Below are positions 3,178 to 56,217 of a stretch of DNA of 64,000 nucleotides, in pieces. Position 1 is the stretch's first letter; every line of letters starts with the position of its first letter. The position numbers and the translations under genes were made by a program. The stretch covers positions 813,965 to 877,964 of the forward strand of contig NZ_NSKH01000018.1 of the NCBI RefSeq assembly GCF_003144095.1, given 5' to 3'. Source of the DNA: Streptomyces sp. ICBB 8177 (lineage in GTDB: Bacteria; Actinomycetota; Actinomycetes; Streptomycetales; Streptomycetaceae). A model generated the notes under the pieces. The model saw nothing but the letters and a program-made list of their open reading frames with translations. It was not told the origin of the DNA and did no database searches.

Positions 3178-3327
3178 TTCCGACCCCCCGAAGGCCGCCT
3201 ACCACCGCGTGAGCCGAGGCTAGTGCGCGGGGTGGGGCGTGCTCCGGTGCTGTGCGCGGAATGACCGGAACTCTTCCCTGTCGCTCCGCCGCCGGGACCG
3301 ACCTGAGGCCGACCCCGGTACGGCGCG

Positions 3328-3364
3328 GTCACCGTGGGCGCGCGTGTCACGCACCCACGGTGAC
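3328..3364 (-). terminator. Hairpin just after the DUF4232 gene
   Basis: A perfect 11-bp inverted repeat, GTCACCGTGGG and CCCACGGTGAC, is separated by 15 nt. It begins 7 nt beyond the stop codon of the leftward gene at 3371-3892. There is no U-tract, which is normal for high-GC actinomycete terminators. The rest of the ~190-bp gap to the LAL gene shows nothing else. Confidence 0.6.
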
Positions 3365-3370
3365 GGCGCG

Positions 3371-3892
3371 TCAGGAACGCGGCTTGGTCAGCGAGAGCGC
3401 GGTGACCGACAGCCGGCCGTCACCGACCGGTTCGCTGAACGCCACGGTCTTGTACGTGCGGGCGTTGGGCGGCGTGACGATCAGGTAGCTGGAGTGCGTG
3501 ATCCGCGGGTACGCGGTGGCCCACGACACATCGGCCCAGGCGTCGGCGCCCGGCTTGAGGGTGAGGGTGCTCACGCCGGGCGTCGGGTCGAAGTACGTCG
3601 AGCCCCACGTGACGCTGGACTTCAGCGTCTTGTGGGCGGAGTCCTGGAGTCCGAGGCCCGGGTAGCCGCGCAGCAGGCAGGTGTGGCCGCTGGTGTTGGT
3701 GAAGCGCAGGAACGCGCCATCGTGGCTCATCCCGGCCTGCCCCGGTGCGGTCTGCACGGTGACGCGCAGCCCGCTGGTGTCGCAGCGCGGAGCCGACGTC
3801 GACTGCTGGGGCGTGGCGGCCTGGGCGGAGGTGGCGCCCAGGCCCACGGTTGCTGCGGCGGTTATGGCGGCCAAGGCCAGTATGCGACGCAT
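3371..3892 (-). CDS. Secreted DUF4232 domain protein
   Basis: The 173-residue product begins with a Sec signal peptide (MRRILALAAITAAATVGLG, cleavage probably after AQA near residue 25). A single DUF4232 beta-sandwich domain follows. It has the usual pair of cysteines (APRCDTSGL and HTCLLRGYPGLGL) expected to form a disulphide, and the typical C-terminal strand pattern (ADAWADVSW, SSYLIVTPPN). DUF4232 proteins are very common exported or lipoproteins in Streptomyces with no proven function; no lipobox is present here, so this one is probably released. The ATG at 3892 has an AAGGA ribosome site. It appears monocistronic, with its own terminator. Confidence 0.88.
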   Translation of the reverse strand: MRRILALAAITAAATVGLGATSAQAATPQQSTSAPRCDTSGLRVTVQTAPGQAGMSHDGAFLRFTNTSGHTCLLRGYPGLGLQDSAHKTLKSSVTWGSTYFDPTPGVSTLTLKPGADAWADVSWATAYPRITHSSYLIVTPPNARTYKTVAFSEPVGDGRLSVTALSLTKPRS

Positions 3893-4988: not shown

Positions 4989-5043
4989 GTGCGTGCACAC
5001 ACACTCTACGGGTTCCGTGCGTGCGCACGCAACCCGCTACAGT
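4989..5043. promoter_or_regulatory. MarR-type operators and leaderless promoter in the SDR/MarR spacer
   Basis: Two related dyads lie between the divergent genes: a perfect 14-bp palindrome TGCGTGCGCACGCA at 5018-5031 and an imperfect one, TGTGCGTGCACACA, at 4989-5002, 29 bp apart. TACAGT at 5038-5043 ends 7 nt before the ATG of the MarR gene, the arrangement seen for leaderless Streptomyces transcripts. The palindrome at 5018 would therefore overlap the spacer or -35 region of that promoter, as expected for autorepression. Which protein binds is inferred from the arrangement. Confidence 0.6.
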
Positions 5044-5050
5044 GGACGCC

Positions 5051-5545
5051 ATGGCACGCACCGACCTCACCCTGGGGGAGCTCACCGCCCGCGACCACGC
5101 CTTCTACGGGCTGGTGTGGGCCAGTACGACTCTTACGGCGCGCGTGGACCGCGTCCTGGCGCGTGCCCACGACCTGCCCCTGTCGTGGTTCGAGGTCATG
5201 CTCTGGCTCAGCGTCCAGGCCGAGCCGGTCGCCGCCTCCGATCTGGGGGAGAAGACCCTGCTCAGCCGCAGCCAGGTCTCCCGGGTCGTCGACGCCCTCC
5301 AGGCGCGCGGTCTGGTGGAGCGCGTGCCCTCGCGGACCGACGCGCGCTCGGTGCGGATCGGGCTGACGCAGGCCGGGCGCAGGGCGTTCGCCGAGGCCGA
5401 CGCGACCCGGCGCGAGGCGCTGGCGGAGGTCTTCGACGACCGCCTCGACGAGGCCGACATCCAGGCCCTGGGAAGGGTGTGGAACAAGCTCAAGACGCCC
5501 CCGCCGCCCGGCGAGCCCACCTGCGGGTCCCCCTCCGCGCCCTGA
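5051..5545 (+). CDS. MarR-family transcriptional regulator
   Basis: The 164-residue protein has the MarR winged-helix fold. A dimerisation helix (residues 1-35) is followed by the HTH (SDLGEKTLLSRSQVSRVVDA, about 73-92), then the wing with the hallmark RTDARSVRIGLTQAGR and a C-terminal dimerisation helix. MarR proteins are usually repressors released by phenolic or other small ligands. The ATG at 5051 was chosen because a TANNNT -10 box sits 7 nt upstream. It diverges from the SDR gene and is its likely regulator. The last ~15 residues are proline-rich and probably unstructured. Confidence 0.92.
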   Translation: MARTDLTLGELTARDHAFYGLVWASTTLTARVDRVLARAHDLPLSWFEVMLWLSVQAEPVAASDLGEKTLLSRSQVSRVVDALQARGLVERVPSRTDARSVRIGLTQAGRRAFAEADATRREALAEVFDDRLDEADIQALGRVWNKLKTPPPPGEPTCGSPSAP

Positions 5546-5620
5546 GGACTGCGCAGCGCGATCGCGATGCCCTTGGCAGCCCTTGCCCCCTCTCTCCTTC
5601 CACCTCCACGGACGTGACGC

Positions 5621-6238
5621 ATGGCCCCCGCTTCCCCGACCTGCTGGGCGGACCTGGCCGCGCGCCGGGAAGGAGTCGACTTCCGCAGGCTGTGGCGCAG
5701 CGCGCCGGGCTCCACCCTGCTGCATCTGGCGATACACGGGGGCGGCATCGAACCGGGCACCACGGAACTCGCCGACGCCGCCGCCGGATCCGCCGACCAC
5801 TTCTACTCGCTGGAAGCCCTGCGCAGCAGCGGAAACGCCGCGCTGCACCTGACCTCGACGCGCTTCGACGAGCCGAAGGCGCTGGCCATGGTCCGCGAAG
5901 CCGACCACGTCATCTCCTGGCACGGCGCCGGCGGCGAGACGCCTGTCACCTACCTCGGCGGCCGTGACGAGCGCCTGCGTGACGCGATAGGTGACGCGCT
6001 GGCGGCGGCGGGTTTCGCCGTCGAGCCCGCTGGGGCCGACATCGACGCGAGCAGCCCGCGCAACATCTGCAACCGCAACACCCGCGGTGCCGGCGTCCAG
6101 TTGGAGATCAGTACGGCGCAGCGCAAGGCGTTCTTCGCGCGCGGCGACCTCGCGCGCCCCAACAGGGCCAGGAGAACGGCGGAGTTCAGCGCCTACGTGA
6201 TGGCGGTGACGAACGCGGCGGCACACACCGGGAGTTGA
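5621..6238 (+). CDS. Poly-gamma-glutamate hydrolase family protein (phage PghP type)
   Basis: The 205-residue protein matches the family of zinc-dependent poly-gamma-glutamate hydrolases first known from Bacillus phages. The N-terminal metal motif AIHGGGIEPGT (residues ~37-47) carries the expected His and Glu. It is followed by the conserved FYSLEA, LHLTSTRFDEP and SWHGAGG segments and a C-terminal RGAGVQLEIS. The family carries a carboxypeptidase-like fold and cuts gamma-glutamyl polymers. No phage genes surround it, so this is a chromosomal copy. No signal peptide is visible, so action on extracellular polymer would need lysis or another export route. The start is tentative because the ribosome site is weak. 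Confidence 0.8.
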   Translation: MAPASPTCWADLAARREGVDFRRLWRSAPGSTLLHLAIHGGGIEPGTTELADAAAGSADHFYSLEALRSSGNAALHLTSTRFDEPKALAMVREADHVISWHGAGGETPVTYLGGRDERLRDAIGDALAAAGFAVEPAGADIDASSPRNICNRNTRGAGVQLEISTAQRKAFFARGDLARPNRARRTAEFSAYVMAVTNAAAHTGS

Positions 6239-6242
6239 CGGG

Positions 6243-6265
6243 CTGTCGGCTTTCCGGGCCGACAG
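6243..6265. terminator. Hairpin between convergent genes
   Basis: An 8-bp perfect stem (CTGTCGGC/GCCGACAG) with a 7-nt loop starts 4 nt after the TGA of the hydrolase gene. It lies before the 3' end of the leftward rhomboid gene and can serve both directions. Confidence 0.55.
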
Positions 6266-6328
6266 ACACGCCCACGGCGGAACGCGCGATGCGGCCGTCC
6301 CGGCACCGCGACGCGGCCGTCCCGGCCC

Positions 6329-7012
6329 TCAGGGCTGCGCCGTGGACCAGGCCTCCAGGTCGACCGCGCCCTCCCACAGGGCCAGCCCCACGCCGAGCAC
6401 GCAACCCACCACGACGCCCACACCGTGGTTGTTGGTGATCGCGCACAGCACGATCCCGGCGAGCGGCACCAGCAGTGCCAGCTTGCGCAGCGCCGGGTCG
6501 GGCCCGCGCAGGGCGTAGACGACGGCCAGGGCGCCGACCAGGCCGCAGATGGCCACCGAGTTGCCCGCGCCGTGCTTGCTCCAGCTCGCCAGGCTCACGG
6601 CCTGCGCGGCGATCCCGCTCACCAGGTAGACGACGAGCATGCGCACCGGCCCGAACAACCGCTCGGCCACCGGGGCCACCGCGATCAGCGCGGCCAGGTT
6701 GAACAGGATCTGGATCCATCCCGACGATTCCACCAGCAAGGCGGACGGCGCCCGCCACCACGGCCCGTCGGGGACCCGCTCCAGGTGGTGCAGGACGGCG
6801 GGCGCGATGGTCTGCACGACGGCCATCGCCGTCATGAGGGCCACCAGGACCGAGGCGACGACCGGCAGCGGGCGCTGCCAGATCCGGCGGACCAGTTGAG
6901 GACCGGCGACCTGCTCGGCGGGGGCCGTCGCCGCCACCAGGACGCGCATGCCAGGGACGACGACGGCCGCGGCGCAGGCGTAGAGAAGCACAGTTCCCGT
7001 ACTCATGCTCAT
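6329..7012 (-). CDS. Rhomboid-family intramembrane serine protease
   Basis: This 227-residue membrane protein has about six or seven hydrophobic helices. A GxS motif, AGNSVAICGLVGA (around residue 150), supplies the likely catalytic Ser. A helix with NNHGVGVVVGC (around 193) supplies the partner His, and a preceding segment FNLAALIAV carries the conserved Asn. This is the rhomboid layout, although the usual GASG is GNSV here, so activity is probable rather than certain. Rhomboids cut transmembrane segments within the bilayer; the substrate is unknown. The neighbours on both sides are convergent or separated by more than 100 bp, so it seems to stand alone. Confidence 0.75.
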   Translation of the reverse strand: MSMSTGTVLLYACAAAVVVPGMRVLVAATAPAEQVAGPQLVRRIWQRPLPVVASVLVALMTAMAVVQTIAPAVLHHLERVPDGPWWRAPSALLVESSGWIQILFNLAALIAVAPVAERLFGPVRMLVVYLVSGIAAQAVSLASWSKHGAGNSVAICGLVGALAVVYALRGPDPALRKLALLVPLAGIVLCAITNNHGVGVVVGCVLGVGLALWEGAVDLEAWSTAQP

Positions 7013-12296: not shown

Positions 12297-12792
12297 CGGG
12301 GGCTCCTGCCTCGGTCGATAGATTGCCTCGGGCAATCGAACACGATGCCTGTGGCCGCTCTGTGACGACAAATCGCTTCGTCGTCACCCGGGGGCGGGGG
12401 AAAAGATCAAGCCAGCCGTTCCGGCCGACGGGAATGATGTACAGGCCAACTATGGCGCCGGTCCATCCGCCCCGGGGTGTCCAGGACGCGGCTCAGGGCC
12501 CCACGGAAACTGTCCGGTTCCGGGTTCGAACGCAGGTCATCCGGCCGAGCGGCCTGTTTCAGCACGTACGGATCAGCGCGCACGGTCCGCGCGTACGAGG
12601 ACGTGTGACCGCGGGCTGTCGCACCGAGCCGGAGGGCGGGTTCGGCCGGGTGGTGCCGTGAAGACGTCGGATCGCCGCGGCCCGGCCGGACGCGCGGCGG
12701 ACGCACCGCCGTTGCCGATACGGTGGACGTCGCGCGGGAAGCGGTGGGCGGGCCCGCGGCCGACGGACCGGTTCGAGGAGTGGGGGCGGCAC
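12297..12792. promoter_or_regulatory. Divergent intergenic region with two inverted repeats
   Basis: This 496-bp gap separates the leftward synthetase from the rightward STAND gene. GATTGCC-TCG-GGCAATC at 12321-12337 is a perfect 7-bp dyad placed 25 bp upstream of the synthetase start, a good operator position. GTGACGAC-N10-GTCGTCAC at 12362-12387 is a second, perfect 8-bp dyad. The remaining ~400 bp show no gene with coding character that I can support. Confidence 0.45.
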
Positions 12793-14949
12793 ATGGTGGA
12801 CCCTGCATCGCTGACGGCGATCACCACGGTGCTCGGGGCAGTGGGCGGCGGCCTGGCCAACGAGGCCGGCAAGGCCGCATGGGAGTCCGCGGGCGTCCTG
12901 ATCCGCCGCATCGCGGGCCGCGAGGTGCAGGCACCCACCGACGCCGATCAGCGTGCGGCCGTCGCGCGCGTCGTCCTCGACGGCATCCGCCGCGAACCCA
13001 CGCTCGCCGCAGCCTGGGCGGTCTTCGCCGGCGGCGTCCCCCGCAGCAGCCCCGGCGCGGGCGTCCCCCAACTGCTGCCGTTCGCCGACCGGTTCTTCAC
13101 CGACCGCAAGCATCCCCTCAAGACGCTGGACCAGGAGTACGACCGCGCGTTCGACGGCACACCGCGCGCCGTCCTGCTGCACGGTCCCTCGGGCATCGGC
13201 ACCAGCGCGCTCGCCGTCCAGTGGGGTTGGCGGGAGCCGAGCCGCTTCCCCGACGGCAGACTGTACGCGGACCTGCGCGGCACCTCACCGGACACCACCC
13301 GGGACGCGGCCTCCGTGCTCGCCCACTTCCTGCGCAAGCTGGGCGTCGCCGACGCCGAGATCCCACCGGCGACGGCCGACCGCGCCGAGCGGTTCCGCGC
13401 GGAAGTCGCGAGCAGGCGGCTGCTGGTCGTCCTGGACCACGCCCACTCCGCGGCGCAGGTCAAGCCCCTCCTGACCGCCGCGCCGGGCGTGTTCACCGTG
13501 GTGGTGGCCCGCAGACCGCTGGCCGGACTGGACCTGGCCGCCGTGCCGCTCGGCCCGCTGACCGAACGCGACGCGCTGCGCCTGCTGACCGGCGTCGCCG
13601 GCAAGCCCGCCGTCACGGCCGCCCGCGCCGTGCTGCCCTCGGCGCTCGCCCGCTGCGCCGGTTCGCCCTTCGCGCTGCGAGCGTTGGCACCCCGGCTGGC
13701 CGAACTGCCCCCGGCAGCGCAGCAGTTCGGGACTGCGGGGGAGGGTGACACGGACGACGCCGACCGCGATCCGGTACGGGCCGCCGTTCACGACGTCTAC
13801 CGCGGCCTGCCGCCCGCGAGCGCCCGCGCCTACCGGCTGCTCGCGGGGCGGCCGTGGCCGTGGATCACCGCGGGGCCGGCGGGTGCCGCGCTGAACGTCC
13901 CGCAGACCGAAGCCGCCGACTTCCTGTCCCAACTCGCCGGCCACCGGCTGCTGGACACCACCGACGGCGTCCGCTACGCCTACCGGCCCAGCGTGCGACG
14001 GCACGCCGAAGGGCTCGCACTGCGCGAGGAAGGCGTCGCGGCTTGCGCGGGAGCCGTGCGCAGGATGACGAAGTGGCTGCTGGAGTTCGCCGTCACCGCG
14101 GACCGCGCCGCCCACCCCGACCGCTGGTGGCTGGGACCGCTCTACACCATCCTGCCGCCGGGACCGTATGGCGAAGACCAGAGCGCCGCGCTCACGGACC
14201 TGGTCGAGGTGCTCGACGTCCTGGTCGAAGCGGTGCGGGCCGCGGAGGAGTTGGAGGACCCGGCCACCGCCTGGCAGTTGTGCGAAGCGATGTGGGCCGC
14301 CCAGTTGCGAGCCGGCCGCCACGACCAGGTCCTGCCCGCCCTTCGCGTCGGGGTCCGGGCCGCCGACGGCCTGGACCCGGACTCCCGGGTCGCCGGACGC
14401 CTGCACACCCAGCTGGCCCTGGCGCTGATGGAACGCCAGGAGTACGACGCGGCAGCCGGTGAACTGCGCACCGCGGCCCGGGCGGAGAGCGCCGCGGGCC
14501 ACCTGCGCGGCCGGGCGACGGCGCTGGAAACCCTCGGCCTGCTGCGGTTACGGCAGTGGCGCCACGAGGACGCCCTCGGCCTGTTCGAGGAGGCGGCCGC
14601 CACCCTCGACGGCGTCGGCCCTGACGACGAGGGGCACGCGGACCTGCCCCGGGCCTGCGCCCTGCTGCGACGCCACCGGGGCCGCGCCCTGCGCGGTCTC
14701 GGCCGCCGCCAGGAAGCACGCGATCTGGGCCGCGAAGCGCTGGAGTACTTCCGGGGCGACGGCCGAGACCCGTACAACGCCGGACGGACGCTGACCGACC
14801 TCGCCGAGATCGAGATCGACGCCGAGGACTACCGGGCGGCCGTCCCCCTCCTCGACGAGGCGATCGCCGCCCTCGCCGCGCAACGCGCCGACTACCACGT
14901 CGACCGGCTCAGGGCGCAGCGCGCGGCATGCGTCAGCGCGGGAGGCTGA
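12793..14949 (+). CDS. AfsR-like STAND (NB-ARC/TPR) protein with altered P-loop
   Basis: From the ATG at 12793 the product has 718 residues. It starts with a conserved-looking helical segment (VLGAVGGGLANEAGK), then an NB-ARC-type ATPase, then TPR-like helices to the end. The nucleotide-binding loop reads GPSGIGTSALA (~residues 132-142): the Walker A lysine is replaced by Thr. A Walker B-like strand RLLVVLDHAHS (~214-224) and a downstream winged-helix-like region follow. There is no DNA-binding HTH or BTAD domain, so it is a signalling or scaffold protein rather than a regulator like AfsR itself. An in-frame GTG at 12658 would add 45 residues but has no family-like sequence. It overlaps the convergent gene's end by 17 bp. 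Confidence 0.85.
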   Translation: MVDPASLTAITTVLGAVGGGLANEAGKAAWESAGVLIRRIAGREVQAPTDADQRAAVARVVLDGIRREPTLAAAWAVFAGGVPRSSPGAGVPQLLPFADRFFTDRKHPLKTLDQEYDRAFDGTPRAVLLHGPSGIGTSALAVQWGWREPSRFPDGRLYADLRGTSPDTTRDAASVLAHFLRKLGVADAEIPPATADRAERFRAEVASRRLLVVLDHAHSAAQVKPLLTAAPGVFTVVVARRPLAGLDLAAVPLGPLTERDALRLLTGVAGKPAVTAARAVLPSALARCAGSPFALRALAPRLAELPPAAQQFGTAGEGDTDDADRDPVRAAVHDVYRGLPPASARAYRLLAGRPWPWITAGPAGAALNVPQTEAADFLSQLAGHRLLDTTDGVRYAYRPSVRRHAEGLALREEGVAACAGAVRRMTKWLLEFAVTADRAAHPDRWWLGPLYTILPPGPYGEDQSAALTDLVEVLDVLVEAVRAAEELEDPATAWQLCEAMWAAQLRAGRHDQVLPALRVGVRAADGLDPDSRVAGRLHTQLALALMERQEYDAAAGELRTAARAESAAGHLRGRATALETLGLLRLRQWRHEDALGLFEEAAATLDGVGPDDEGHADLPRACALLRRHRGRALRGLGRRQEARDLGREALEYFRGDGRDPYNAGRTLTDLAEIEIDAEDYRAAVPLLDEAIAALAAQRADYHVDRLRAQRAACVSAGG

Positions 14950-16723
14950 CCGACACGGTGTGCGCGGCCGGGCCCGTCACGACGACGAGCCCGTCCGCCG
15001 CCAGGTCCCGCACCGTACGGCCCTCGGACAGGCTGCCGTGCAGCGCGCAGACCCACGCGGCGGGATCGGCGGCGCCCGGCGCCCCGGTGAGCCAGAGTGT
15101 CGCACCGTCCCGGGTCCGCACCACGCACTCGGCGGGACCGGTCAGGTACGCCGCGACCGAGCAGTGCGGAAACCGCGTGAGCGTCCGCGCCGCCCACGCC
15201 TCCGGCCTTCCCAACCGGGGGTCGTCGCGGTCGCCGTGACGCCAGATCACGTCCGCGTGGGAAAGCACCCCGGGATCGAGTGCGTCCTCGTGGACCGCCG
15301 TGTGAACGTACCCGCCGGCGCCGTCGGGCTCGTGGCGCGGATCGGCGTACCGGGTCACCACGACCTCGTTCGTCGCCGCCACCCGCGTGACCACCCGCAC
15401 CGGCGCCGTGCACACCCGCGGCTCGTACGGTGGCAACGGCAGCGGGTCCAGCACCGCCGGGCCGGCGGGTTCGTCGATGCCGATCAGCGCGTAGAAGGCG
15501 CGGCGCAGCAGCGCCGCCGACCCACCCGGCGCCGACGTGGTGAACTCGGCCGGCCAACGCGGTGGCGTGTGGGAGGCGAGCAGCGCGGACACCTGCTTCT
15601 CCAGGGGCCCGTACGGGTCGAGTCGCGGCGCCTGGCGCACGAACGCGGCCACGGGGGAGCCCTCGTCGAGCGCGTCGTGTGAGGTGGTCCCGACCAGCAC
15701 GGGCGTGCCGAGTGCGGCCGCGTAGTACGAGACGCTGCCGAAGTCGCCGATCACCACGTCGGCCGCGATCAGGGCCTGCCGCCAGCCTTCGATCGGGTCC
15801 ACCAGCGCCAGTCCGGCGCGCCGCGCCCGGTCCGTCCAGGCGCGGACCTGGCCCGGGCCGTGTCCCTGCCAGATGTTGGGGTGCAGGACGGCGGCCAACC
15901 GGTATTCGTCCAACGGGAGTTCGGAGACCAGGCGGGGAAGGAGTACCGGCAGCAGGTCCTCGGCGCCACCGTCGCCGAAGAGCGATTCGGGATTCCAGGT
16001 CGAGTTCAGCACCACCAGGCGCTGGCCGTCGTGGACCCCGAGTGCCCGGCGGAAGCGGTCGCGGTGGCAACGCGCGGCCAGCATGCGGTCGTAGCACGGG
16101 TCCCCGGCGAGCAGGGCCGCCGGAGCCGCCTCGGGGCAGGCCGCGCGCAGGCGGTCCAGTTGCTCCGGATGGGAGAGGACGAACGCGTCCGCCACGGGGA
16201 CGCCTTCGGGGGTGAGCACCCAGTCAGGCGAAAGCCCGAAGACCGGCGTTCCGGCGTTCCGGCGTTCCGGCGTTCCGGCGTTCCGGCGTTCCGGCGTTCC
16301 GGCGTTCCGGCGTTCCGGCGTTCCGGCGTTCCGGCGTTCCGGCGGCGCCAGCCTTTTATTGTATCCGATCCCATGCGAAAGCACCGCCAACTTGCCCCGC
16401 AAAGCGTGGAGTTGACCCCCGAGGCTCGCCGAGATCGCCAGATCGACCGGTGTGTCGAGCGCCTGCTCCCACGGAAGGACCGGTACCCCCACGGCGGCCA
16501 GCAACTCGCCGACACCGCCCTGGAAGGGCGAGGACCCCGTGCACGTGGCGAGCAGCTGAATGCGGAAGTCGTCCCGGAACAACGGCAGTACGTCCAGCAG
16601 GCGCGTCGCCGACGTGACGTTGTGCACCACGAGGAGAACGCGTCGGCACAGGCCCCGCGTGGCCCACCGCGCCGCCTCGTCCCCGACCGGCACCCGGAGC
16701 CACCCGAACCCCGCTCGGGTCAC
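14933..16723 (-). CDS. CDP-glycerol glycerophosphotransferase-like GT-B protein with octanucleotide repeat
   Basis: The GTG at 16723 follows a strong AGGAGGGG. The 596-residue product has a Rossmann-like N-domain (LLVVHNVTSATRLLDVLPLF, LAVLSHGIGYNKRL) and a central/C-terminal GT-B domain (LHPNIWQGHG, DVVIGDFGSVSYYAAALGTP). These resemble CDP-glycerol:polyol-phosphate glycerophosphotransferases that build teichoic-acid-like polymers. The last ~150 residues form an extra domain. Residues ~127-160 are four copies of ERRNAGTP, encoded by 12 copies of an 8-bp unit inserted in a loop after GYNKRL. Since 8 is not a multiple of 3, loss or gain of one unit would truncate the protein. The reading frame is intact as sequenced. 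Function is inferred from motifs only. Confidence 0.8.
   Translation of the reverse strand: MTRAGFGWLRVPVGDEAARWATRGLCRRVLLVVHNVTSATRLLDVLPLFRDDFRIQLLATCTGSSPFQGGVGELLAAVGVPVLPWEQALDTPVDLAISASLGGQLHALRGKLAVLSHGIGYNKRLAPPERRNAGTPERRNAGTPERRNAGTPERRNAGTPVFGLSPDWVLTPEGVPVADAFVLSHPEQLDRLRAACPEAAPAALLAGDPCYDRMLAARCHRDRFRRALGVHDGQRLVVLNSTWNPESLFGDGGAEDLLPVLLPRLVSELPLDEYRLAAVLHPNIWQGHGPGQVRAWTDRARRAGLALVDPIEGWRQALIAADVVIGDFGSVSYYAAALGTPVLVGTTSHDALDEGSPVAAFVRQAPRLDPYGPLEKQVSALLASHTPPRWPAEFTTSAPGGSAALLRRAFYALIGIDEPAGPAVLDPLPLPPYEPRVCTAPVRVVTRVAATNEVVVTRYADPRHEPDGAGGYVHTAVHEDALDPGVLSHADVIWRHGDRDDPRLGRPEAWAARTLTRFPHCSVAAYLTGPAECVVRTRDGATLWLTGAPGAADPAAWVCALHGSLSEGRTVRDLAADGLVVVTGPAAHTVSVSLPR
16243..16344. 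repeat. (GGCGTTCC)12 octanucleotide microsatellite inside a CDS
   Basis: Twelve perfect, uninterrupted copies of GGCGTTCC occupy 16245-16340, with partial units on both sides (CC at 16243, GGCG at 16341). Read on the gene strand, GGAACGCC repeated gives the same cyclic octapeptide (GTPERRNA) in all three frames and no stop. Slippage therefore only alters the frame after the tract. Tracts of this kind are typical of contingency genes in pathogens and rare in Streptomyces coding DNA. Confidence 0.97.
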
Positions 16724-16853
16724 GGACCCCTCCTCGTGCCGGCCGACTCATCGCGCGTTCGGCCGATCACCCTAGCGCACCACGAGGTGACGGCCGGGGC
16801 AGCGGCTACCAGGCCACCGGCAGCCCGCCGGGAGGGTGCCGCGCCCAGCCACC

Positions 16854-16859
16854 TAGGGT
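16854..16859 (+). promoter_or_regulatory. Leaderless -10 box of the OsmC gene
   Basis: TAGGGT ends 6 nt before the ATG at 16866 and there is no Shine-Dalgarno sequence, so the transcript is probably leaderless. Confidence 0.5.
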
Positions 16860-16865
16860 GGGGAC

Positions 16866-17354
16866 ATGGCCGACACGCACACGTACGACGTCGCGATCGA
16901 GTGGACCGGCAACCTCGGCCCGGGCACGGCCGGCTACCGCGCCTACGGTCGTGACCACGAGATCCTCGCCGCCGGGAAGTCCCCGATCGCCGCCTCCGCC
17001 GACCCTGCCTTCCGCGGCGACCCCGCGCGCTGGAACCCCGAGGAACTGCTTGTCGCCTCGGTCGCCCAGTGCCACATGCTCTGGTACCTCCACCTGTGCG
17101 CCACCGGGGGCGTGGTCGTCGTCGACTACGAGGACCACGCCCGCGGTGTGATGACGATGGACGACTCCGGGGGCGGCGGCCGCATCACGGAGGTCGTCCT
17201 GCGCCCCGAGGTCACGGTGGCGGACCCGGTCATGACGGACAAGGCGCAGGCTCTGCACGGGGAGGTGCACGCGGTGTGCTTCATCGCCCGCTCGGTCGCC
17301 TTCCCCATCCGCCACGAGCCGTCCGTCCACGCCCTGAACGCCGAGGACGCCTGA
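16866..17354 (+). CDS. OsmC family peroxiredoxin-like protein
   Basis: The 162-residue protein has the OsmC/Ohr fold with its two redox cysteines. One is in the helix VASVAQCHMLWYLHL (~residue 68) and the other in HAVCFIARSV (~139). The family reduces organic hydroperoxides, drawing electrons from lipoylated proteins or thiols. The N-terminus (HTYDVAIEWTGNLGPGTAGY) is typical of the OsmC subgroup rather than Ohr. It is monocistronic, convergent on the methyltransferase gene 85 bp downstream, and probably leaderless. Confidence 0.9.
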   Translation: MADTHTYDVAIEWTGNLGPGTAGYRAYGRDHEILAAGKSPIAASADPAFRGDPARWNPEELLVASVAQCHMLWYLHLCATGGVVVVDYEDHARGVMTMDDSGGGGRITEVVLRPEVTVADPVMTDKAQALHGEVHAVCFIARSVAFPIRHEPSVHALNAEDA

Positions 17355-17439
17355 GCGACACGCCTGGGGTCCTGACGTGCGGGCAGGCCGCGCGGCGCAC
17401 GGTGGCGGCGTGGTGTGCGACGTCGGGCGAGCAACTGGC

Positions 17440-18297
17440 TCAGGTGGTGGCGAGCAGGAAGTCCTCACCGCTGGACGGGCGGAGGCCGTCGGTCCGGTCG
17501 GCGAAGTAGCGCTCGGCGAGCGAGGCGCCCGGTACGTGCCGGGCGTCCTCGAAGCCGGCCTCACGCGCCAGGGCCAGCATCTCCCGCGGTGTGTAGAAGC
17601 TGATGAACGGTGTTCCGGACGCTCGTGCGCCTTCCTCGCTCGTCCGCAGTCCGCGTCGGTCGGCGCTGTCCACCAGCTCGGTCGGCAGAAGGAAGGTCAT
17701 GGCGAGCGTCGAGCCGGGGGCCAGCCCCGCGCTCCGGCGCAGCGTGGCGGAGGTGGCCTCCTTGGTGAGGTACATGGTGACGCCGGTGGACGCGATGACC
17801 GCCGGGCGGCCGGGATCGAATCCGGCGGCGACCAGCTTCTCCAGCCAGTCCTGGCCGGCTTCGAAGTCGACCGGCACCAGACGCAGCCGGTCGGGGACGC
17901 CGTAGCCGAGCTCGACCAGGCGGCGCCGCTTCCACGCCTGGGTGCCGGGCTGGTCGACCTCGAAGACCCGTAGAAGTGAGGCGAGTTCGGGCTCGCGCTG
18001 GGCGAAGGTGTCCAGCCCCGCCCCCACGATGACGTACTGGTCCACGCCCTGCCCGGCCTGCTCGGCGACCAGGTCCTCGACGAAGCGGGCGCGCGCGACG
18101 ATGGCGGCCCTGAACCCTCTGGTGGCTCCCGGGGCCATGTCCGGGCGGTCGCGCCACCCCTCGCCCGGGTCCGCCAGCCGCAGGCCGACCTCGTCCACGA
18201 TCACGTACGGGGGCGGGTCGACCTGGAGGTGCATCGCCCGCCAGAGGGCGGTGCGCACCGCGGTGTTGTCCGGTGGTTCCAACTGCTCGTGTGTCAT
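17440..18297 (-). CDS. Class I SAM-dependent methyltransferase, leucine-carboxyl-methyltransferase-like family
   Basis: The 285-residue protein belongs to the LCM/TIGR00027 type. The N-terminal segment DNTAVRTALWRAMH is followed by the SAM motif QYVIVGAGLDTFAQR and the acidic loop RVFEVDQPGTQAWKRR. The motif ASTGVTMYLTKEAT follows. Substrates of this expanded actinobacterial family are mostly unknown. The ATG at 18297 was preferred over an upstream in-frame start because GGGGA precedes it. It is the third gene of a compact leftward operon after an RHH regulator and a VOC protein (20-nt gap). Confidence 0.85.
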   Translation of the reverse strand: MTHEQLEPPDNTAVRTALWRAMHLQVDPPPYVIVDEVGLRLADPGEGWRDRPDMAPGATRGFRAAIVARARFVEDLVAEQAGQGVDQYVIVGAGLDTFAQREPELASLLRVFEVDQPGTQAWKRRRLVELGYGVPDRLRLVPVDFEAGQDWLEKLVAAGFDPGRPAVIASTGVTMYLTKEATSATLRRSAGLAPGSTLAMTFLLPTELVDSADRRGLRTSEEGARASGTPFISFYTPREMLALAREAGFEDARHVPGASLAERYFADRTDGLRPSSGEDFLLATT

Positions 18298-18317
18298 GGT
18301 GTCCCCGTTCGCCGAGG

Positions 18318-18662
18318 TCAGCTCTCGGCGGGAGCCTGGAGGGTCCACAGGCGCCCGTCGGGGTCGCGGACGGTCATCTCCCTGGTCCCGTAATGGGTGT
18401 CCTCGAACGGCGTGACCACCTCGACGACAGGGTCGGGACGGAACGCGTCCGTCTCCGGCGCCTTGAGCACGATCCGCGTCTGCGGCTCCTGGTCTTTCGG
18501 GACCTCGGCGATGAACACGTACGGACCGTCGCCGTTGCGCAGCTGACCGGAGTCGTGGTCCGTCGCGAACTCCAGCTCGTAGCCCAGTTCCTGGAAGAAC
18601 TTCGCTGCCTTGCCCCAGTTGTGCGTGGTCAGGAAGACGGCCTCGATGCCTTCGGTGGTCAT
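18318..18662 (-). CDS. VOC-family (glyoxalase/bleomycin-resistance fold) protein
   Basis: The 114-residue protein has the duplicated beta-alpha-beta-beta-beta fold of the VOC family. The first half has GKAAKFFQELGYELEFATD; the second has THYGTREMTVRDPDGRLW with a conserved C-terminal Glu. VOC members include metal-dependent isomerases and drug-binding resistance proteins; the activity here is unknown. Its ATG follows the stop of the RHH gene by one base (TGACATG) and its AAGGAG lies inside that gene's end, so translation is coupled. Confidence 0.88.
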   Translation of the reverse strand: MTTEGIEAVFLTTHNWGKAAKFFQELGYELEFATDHDSGQLRNGDGPYVFIAEVPKDQEPQTRIVLKAPETDAFRPDPVVEVVTPFEDTHYGTREMTVRDPDGRLWTLQAPAES

Positions 18663-35395: not shown

Positions 35396-39979
<4,584 letters not shown>

Positions 39980-56104: not shown

Positions 56105-56217
56105 CGCCCCGCCCGCACGCCCCAACACCCAAGCCCGTCCCCCGCAACACCCCAACTCCCAAGCACATCCCCGAGCTGCGAACCCCTTCCGCCCGACGCG
56201 AACAAGGAGCCGGACCG

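Follow-up and report, generated by a model that had tools for sequence, protein, structure and literature searches.

The window analyzed here is a 64,000-nucleotide stretch of DNA (positions 813,965 to 877,964 of contig NZ_NSKH01000018.1) from Streptomyces sp. ICBB 8177, and it contains two convergent genes, called gene A and gene B below, the first of which carries a perfect tandem array in its coding region. Gene A is an open reading frame of 596 codons on the minus strand (positions 14933–16723) that begins with GTG and is preceded by a probable ribosome-binding site, GGAGGGG (16727–16733, minus strand; recognized by eye). The array lies at 16243–16344 and consists of 12.75 perfect copies of the octanucleotide GGCGTTCC as read on the plus strand, or GGAACGCC on the coding strand; Tandem Repeats Finder (TRF) reports it with period 8, 12.8 copies, 100% matches and a score of 204, so the perfect tract given in the preliminary description is real and its count of exactly twelve units needs a small correction. 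Shuffled windows are expected to have 0.23 adjacent unit pairs with two or fewer mismatches, compared with 11 perfect matches in this tract. The array's pattern occurs a single time in its own genome, and in the 864 kb of that genome surveyed for arrays of 4–12 nt units the array, at 102 bp, is the longest (the runner-up is 32 bp), which rules out its being one of many genomic copies. The folding energies of its DNA strands are no better than those of shuffled sequences (z = +1.6 and +2.0), and the idea that the unit sequence acts through DNA structure was set aside for that reason; an Rfam search of positions 12500–18500 returned no matches. Two other repeats were seen in the window: a 276-bp tandem repeat at 35583–37459 (6.8 copies at 81% matches, with a unit length divisible by 3), whose consensus resembles by eye repeated HAMP-type signaling domains, and a degenerate C/A-rich tandem repeat with 22–30 nt units at 56111–56172.

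Two motifs, both encoded on the minus strand, lie on either side of the array within gene A. HGIGYNK (residues 117–123; 16355–16375) is conserved and immediately precedes the array on the coding strand, and it was used to locate the array site in homologues; GDFGSVSYY (residues 326–334; 15722–15748) lies downstream and aligns with the TDYSSVMFDY of TagF-type proteins. The full 596-residue frame is open at the window's copy number, as had been described. When the copy number was changed in silico, removal of one unit gave a product of 163 amino acids and addition of one unit gave 241 amino acids, which bears out the earlier expectation of truncation within about 100 residues, and three-unit steps restored the frame (588 amino acids at −3 and 604 at +3). 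All three frames of the array are open and encode one cyclic peptide, the identical octapeptide that had been pointed out before; this follows trivially from the unit length, as any unit not divisible by 3 behaves in the same way. In the AlphaFold model of gene A (mean pLDDT 83.9) the array-encoded residues, 130–158, are disordered and directly follow the HG motif, and the model suggests that the ON-state enzyme probably tolerates changes in the length of this loop.

What does gene A encode? The model has a TagF/UDP-GlcNAc 2-epimerase-like core at residues ~22–417 and an extra C-terminal region at ~420–596. The best structural matches of the GT-B core, all at low identity, are UDP-GlcNAc 2-epimerases (Z up to 22.6) and TagF (3l7k; Z 20.9), and the GT-B fold is thus not exclusive to the TagF family, PF04464 (Glyphos_transf), since the epimerases tie with it or lead. 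On the PF04464 profile, whose cut-off is 22.1 bits, gene A scores 13.2; of 28 gene A homologues, 13 match it at E ≤ 1 (best 2.3e-4), and one distant homologue (G039, the gene at locus L008) scores above the cut-off at 24.1 bits. Profile–profile alignment with PF04464 brings the GDP motif and the DxGS motif into register, with an E-value of 0.0049 and a probability of 7%. Searches against Pfam, NCBIfam, PHROGs and PADLOC did not place gene A confidently in any family, and no relevant PDB chain was hit by sequence. Elsewhere in the genome lies a bona fide PF04464 gene. Gene A therefore shares with the TagF/TarL-type CDP-polyol phosphotransferases a GT-B core, the HG motif and an aligned D..SS/GS motif, and differs from them in its sub-cut-off profile score and in matching UDP-GlcNAc 2-epimerases equally well. 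The earlier assignment as a CDP-glycerol glycerophosphotransferase-like protein stands at the level of the fold and of a weak profile match; gene A is best described as a TagF-like GT-B enzyme for which a role as a wall-polymer transferase is plausible. An insertion in a CDP-glycerol glycerophosphotransferase of S. albulus (PMC11768054) was set aside, as it is a 1-nt insertion from adaptive evolution.

Gene B (12658–14949, plus strand; likely start ATG at 12793), which the preliminary description did not mention, shares 17 nt with gene A where their 3′ ends overlap, and a consensus terminator was not found where the two genes converge. It encodes an AfsR-like NB-ARC/STAND ATPase with TPRs: its NB-ARC region matches that of AfsR (E 5e-42), HaaT is matched over 600 amino acids, and a Walker-type GPSGIGTS is present. 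Like AfsR and other NB-ARC-TPR (STAND) regulators it thus has an NB-ARC ATPase with TPR repeats, but it differs from AfsR in having no N-terminal SARP DNA-binding part (the match to the AfsR model begins at model position 287 and scores 143.9 bits, where the cut-off is 1430) and in being convergent with gene A rather than operonic. Its N-terminal ~90 residues have no match in the libraries searched, and PADLOC gave one weak, unrelated candidate model for it (E 0.036). A paper on NTPase "conflict systems" names glycosyltransferase effectors and possible teichoic acid targets (PMC7159879); the passages found there do not mention the gene A/gene B pair. Among 134 loci with enough flanking sequence, gene B adjoins gene A in 127, with a median stop-to-stop distance of −4 nt, and the pairing extends across genera. 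The upstream gene neighborhood is not conserved. Gene B is open for at least 500 amino acids at 89 of 90 loci with an ON gene A and at 36 of 37 with an OFF gene A (states defined below), and it has no non-3n array of its own at the loci with enough flank, so co-switching of gene B with gene A was rejected. A gene B homologue also lies near every distant-subfamily gene A that was fetched with enough flank, with or without an array and including that of L238, although the positions were not all checked singly and the L233 match belongs to a neighboring orthologue. From this distribution the two genes appear to be an old module.

Comparison of the array site was carried out on an even sample of 395 Streptomycetaceae genomes plus fetched loci, which yielded 89 orthologues of gene A. 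Eighty of these have a perfect array (at least three copies) directly after the conserved HGxGYNK, starting at the same position to within a few nucleotides, and nine have none; the check for orthologues lacking the insert after GYNKRL, which the preliminary description had suggested, thus finds both kinds. Some of the array-less orthologues have only a short linker, a gap of 15–48 nt, in its place. The main unit is 7 nt long in 74 of the 80 arrays, 8 nt in three, 4 nt in two and 10 nt in one; none is 9 nt long and none is divisible by 3. In 627 kb flanking the same genes we found 20 arrays, 16 of which have 3n units of 6 or 9 nt, a difference from 0 of 80 that corresponds to a Fisher p of 3.6e-15 uncorrected for shared ancestry. 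The bias holds in a wider set of 189 non-identical family genes, where 145 of the 147 main arrays have a non-3n unit; the other two have 6-nt main units, and one of these (L031) also has a 7-nt array. Unit sequences vary widely among species (ACACCGG, AGCCGGG, ACGCCGG, AAGCCGG and others), and so many different units imply that the array was probably re-formed repeatedly at one site. Coding-strand T makes up 0.5% of the units, compared with 14.8% across the rest of the gene, and no unit in the orthologue arrays contains a stop codon in any frame; the array can therefore be read through in any frame, and whether a long or a short product results is decided downstream of it. By their sequences, then, these arrays look built for frame switching. 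In two related species (L135 and L172) a tetranucleotide GCCA array replaces the 7-mer at this site; at one of the two loci it is ON at 13.8 copies, and at the other it is apparently OFF, with an N run.

Similar arrays are found beyond the orthologues. Paralogous subfamilies with 36–55% identity have arrays at the same site, some of them OFF (L190, L234–L236). Arrays at this site also occur in relatives from a second family of the order, namely L011/L238, with 39 copies of a 7-mer (ON), and L008, with 5-mers (OFF). Several paralogue subfamilies have no array, and because these and nine of the 89 orthologues do without it, the switch appears not to be essential to gene A. Beyond the order, members of the gene family are rare: of 396 genomes drawn across the phylum, a single one, from another family, has it. 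Some loci have more than one array or gene copy. L087, from the same genome as L140, has two array-bearing gene A paralogues within 5 kb (~563–2400 and 5001–6764; GAGCCGG × 14.7 and GACACCG × 7.9) with a gene B homologue beside them, a possible double switch. At L146 a long 7-nt array (3227–3392; GCGGCTC × 23.7) flanks an orthologue that lacks an array, and the region holds two more gene A paralogues; at L169 (3815–3879) 8.1 copies of CAGGGCGT lie ~0.7 kb upstream of gene A within an uncharacterized open frame and could be a second slippage site.

Both states of the array occur among the orthologues. Using tblastn frames and one genome per species, we called 46 of the 80 array-bearing orthologues ON and 34 OFF, the latter split 19 and 15 between the two wrong frames. 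ON genes exceed the one-third expected by chance (binomial p 1.3e-5), and ON is therefore favored and OFF could be partly transient. A state of this kind might in principle be created by short-read assembly through repeats, and N runs do lie inside the array at a few loci (L004, L160 and L172); however, 13 OFF alleles are in near-finished genomes of 10 or fewer contigs, and the ON:OFF ratio there (20:13) is about the same as in drafts (26:21; Fisher p 0.65), so that short-read collapse is not the cause of OFF and we consider it extremely unlikely that the OFF alleles are artefacts. The nearest relative of the window's organism, which groups with Streptantibioticus and not with Streptomyces, is itself an OFF case: Streptantibioticus parmotrematis (L003/L024) has GCCGGAA × 16.7 at the site, its N-terminal half stops just past the array, and its C-terminal half is intact in a different frame. 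Several close pairs, all of them between species, differ in state by whole units (L054/L166 by +7 nt, L120/L156 by +14, L082/L184 by +77, and L088/L180 by +10 with 10-nt units), and L026/L027 differ by +21 with both ON. Others differ by non-whole units, for example L036/L100 by +10 with 7-nt units, and the array flanks therefore change too. On a quick FastTree tree of the 189 genes the ON/OFF state changes 38 times, compared with 37.8 ± 2.0 for shuffled labels, and array presence changes 21 times, compared with 38; the state thus has no phylogenetic memory and array presence has it, with the reservation that shared ancestry is left uncorrected in these statistics and that arrays shared since a recent ancestor are not independent of one another.

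The OFF genes do not look like decaying genes. In none of the 34 is there a stop in the aligned downstream half, 33 are open for at least 427 residues from the start of that half, and downstream-half dN/dS is 0.14–0.31 for ON/OFF pairs and 0.18–0.36 for ON/ON pairs. The OFF downstream halves thus appear intact and under purifying selection. These values largely refute the view that the array is a microsatellite that expanded neutrally in a disordered loop, within a gene the cell can do without, so that frame loss is of no consequence and the OFF alleles are decaying. That view fits the modeled disorder of the loop and the orthologues with only a short linker, but it also conflicts with the avoidance of 3n unit lengths, the reverse of what the flanking arrays show, and with the occupation of one site by arrays of many different units, and we regard it as quite unlikely. 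Programmed ribosomal or transcriptional slippage within the array would offer another account, in which OFF alleles yield some full-length protein and the array tunes its amount or gives two products. With three open frames and one cyclic peptide, a frame change anywhere in the array would be harmless to the loop; the differing unit sequences among species argue against such slippage, and units of 5, 7, 8 or 10 nt are not known to be slippery. This account is very unlikely in our estimation.

The combined results are those expected of a reversible switch rather than of a pseudogene or a neutral loop, and we conclude that the array is very probably an evolved simple-sequence contingency (phase-variation) switch. 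The preliminary description had proposed such a switch for the window alone, and the proposal is now strongly supported by the conserved site in orthologues, the changing non-3n units, the ON and OFF states and the intact OFF alleles; its further argument, that the perfection of the units implies ongoing slippage, is not borne out by the window itself, and evidence of that kind comes from the orthologue comparison instead. The mechanism we infer is slipped-strand mispairing that would reversibly add or remove 8-nt units; since 8 cannot be divided by 3 and no frame of the unit contains a stop, the array would stay open and the frame downstream would shift. At 12.75 units, and at three units more or fewer, the full GT-B enzyme would be made (ON), with the array encoding a disordered, hydrophilic loop past HGxGYNK, and at other unit numbers an N-terminal fragment of ~163–241 amino acids, lacking most of the GT-B core and GDFGSVSYY, would result (OFF). 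Such a switch would have been rebuilt from 4-, 5-, 7-, 8- or 10-nt units and kept across Streptomycetaceae and another family of the order. As to the phenotype, our best guess is that a surface glycopolymer is modified in an on/off fashion, with some link to the convergent gene B. By analogy with phase-variable surface genes and pglX (below) we would guess, too, that the surface is altered in this way when phages or other antagonists attack. In its broadest form, which we offer tentatively and think rather less likely than not, genes A and B could be an ancient, undescribed module of filamentous actinomycetes in which a hypermutable GT-B surface enzyme stands tail-to-tail with a STAND NTPase and is kept switching by repeated rebuilding of a stop-free, frame-breaking microsatellite, probably as bet-hedging against phages or surface antagonists.

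Phase variation through simple repeats is seen chiefly as a trait of host-adapted bacteria with small genomes, and a gene family in large-genome, multicellular soil bacteria that has one putative switch site and turns over its repeat sequence suggests selection on switchability itself. The switch predicts clonal heterogeneity in the cell-surface chemistry, and possibly the phage sensitivity, of antibiotic-producing strains, and it may explain split or "frameshifted" annotations of gene A; its constant partner, gene B, provides a handle on function.

The contingency loci of Haemophilus and Neisseria carry their arrays, tetranucleotide ones among them, in LPS/LOS and restriction-modification genes. 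Gene A shares with them an intragenic perfect array, a non-3n unit and ON/OFF alleles, as well as a type of gene that may act on surface polysaccharide. It differs in that its hosts are GC-rich soil actinomycetes with large genomes, its units are mostly 7 nt (also 4, 5, 8 and 10 nt) long, the unit sequence is replaced between species with the site and the non-3n length kept, and the array lies in the middle of the enzyme core, past the conserved HG motif. In Streptomyces, pglX of the S. coelicolor Pgl (phage growth limitation) system phase-varies by a G tract (PMC4365076), so the earlier statement that this is not an established mechanism in the genus was too strong. This single G tract is the one Streptomyces example that we found in the literature; in the open-licence literature on Streptomyces repeats and phase variation we found neither the gene A family nor long-unit actinomycete switches, which is weak evidence of their absence. 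Gene A and pglX are alike in having repeat-length phase variation (proposed here for gene A) inside a Streptomyces coding gene, but the pglX tract is a homopolymer in a DNA methyltransferase gene and gene A has long units. Gene A was also considered as a phase-variable defense gene of the Pgl/BREX kind and rejected, as it matches no PADLOC model at E ≤ 1 and no Pgl or BREX component. Phase variation by repeats is itself known; what appears to be new here is a taxonomically wide, site-conserved putative switch whose unit sequence turns over and whose partner is of the STAND type.
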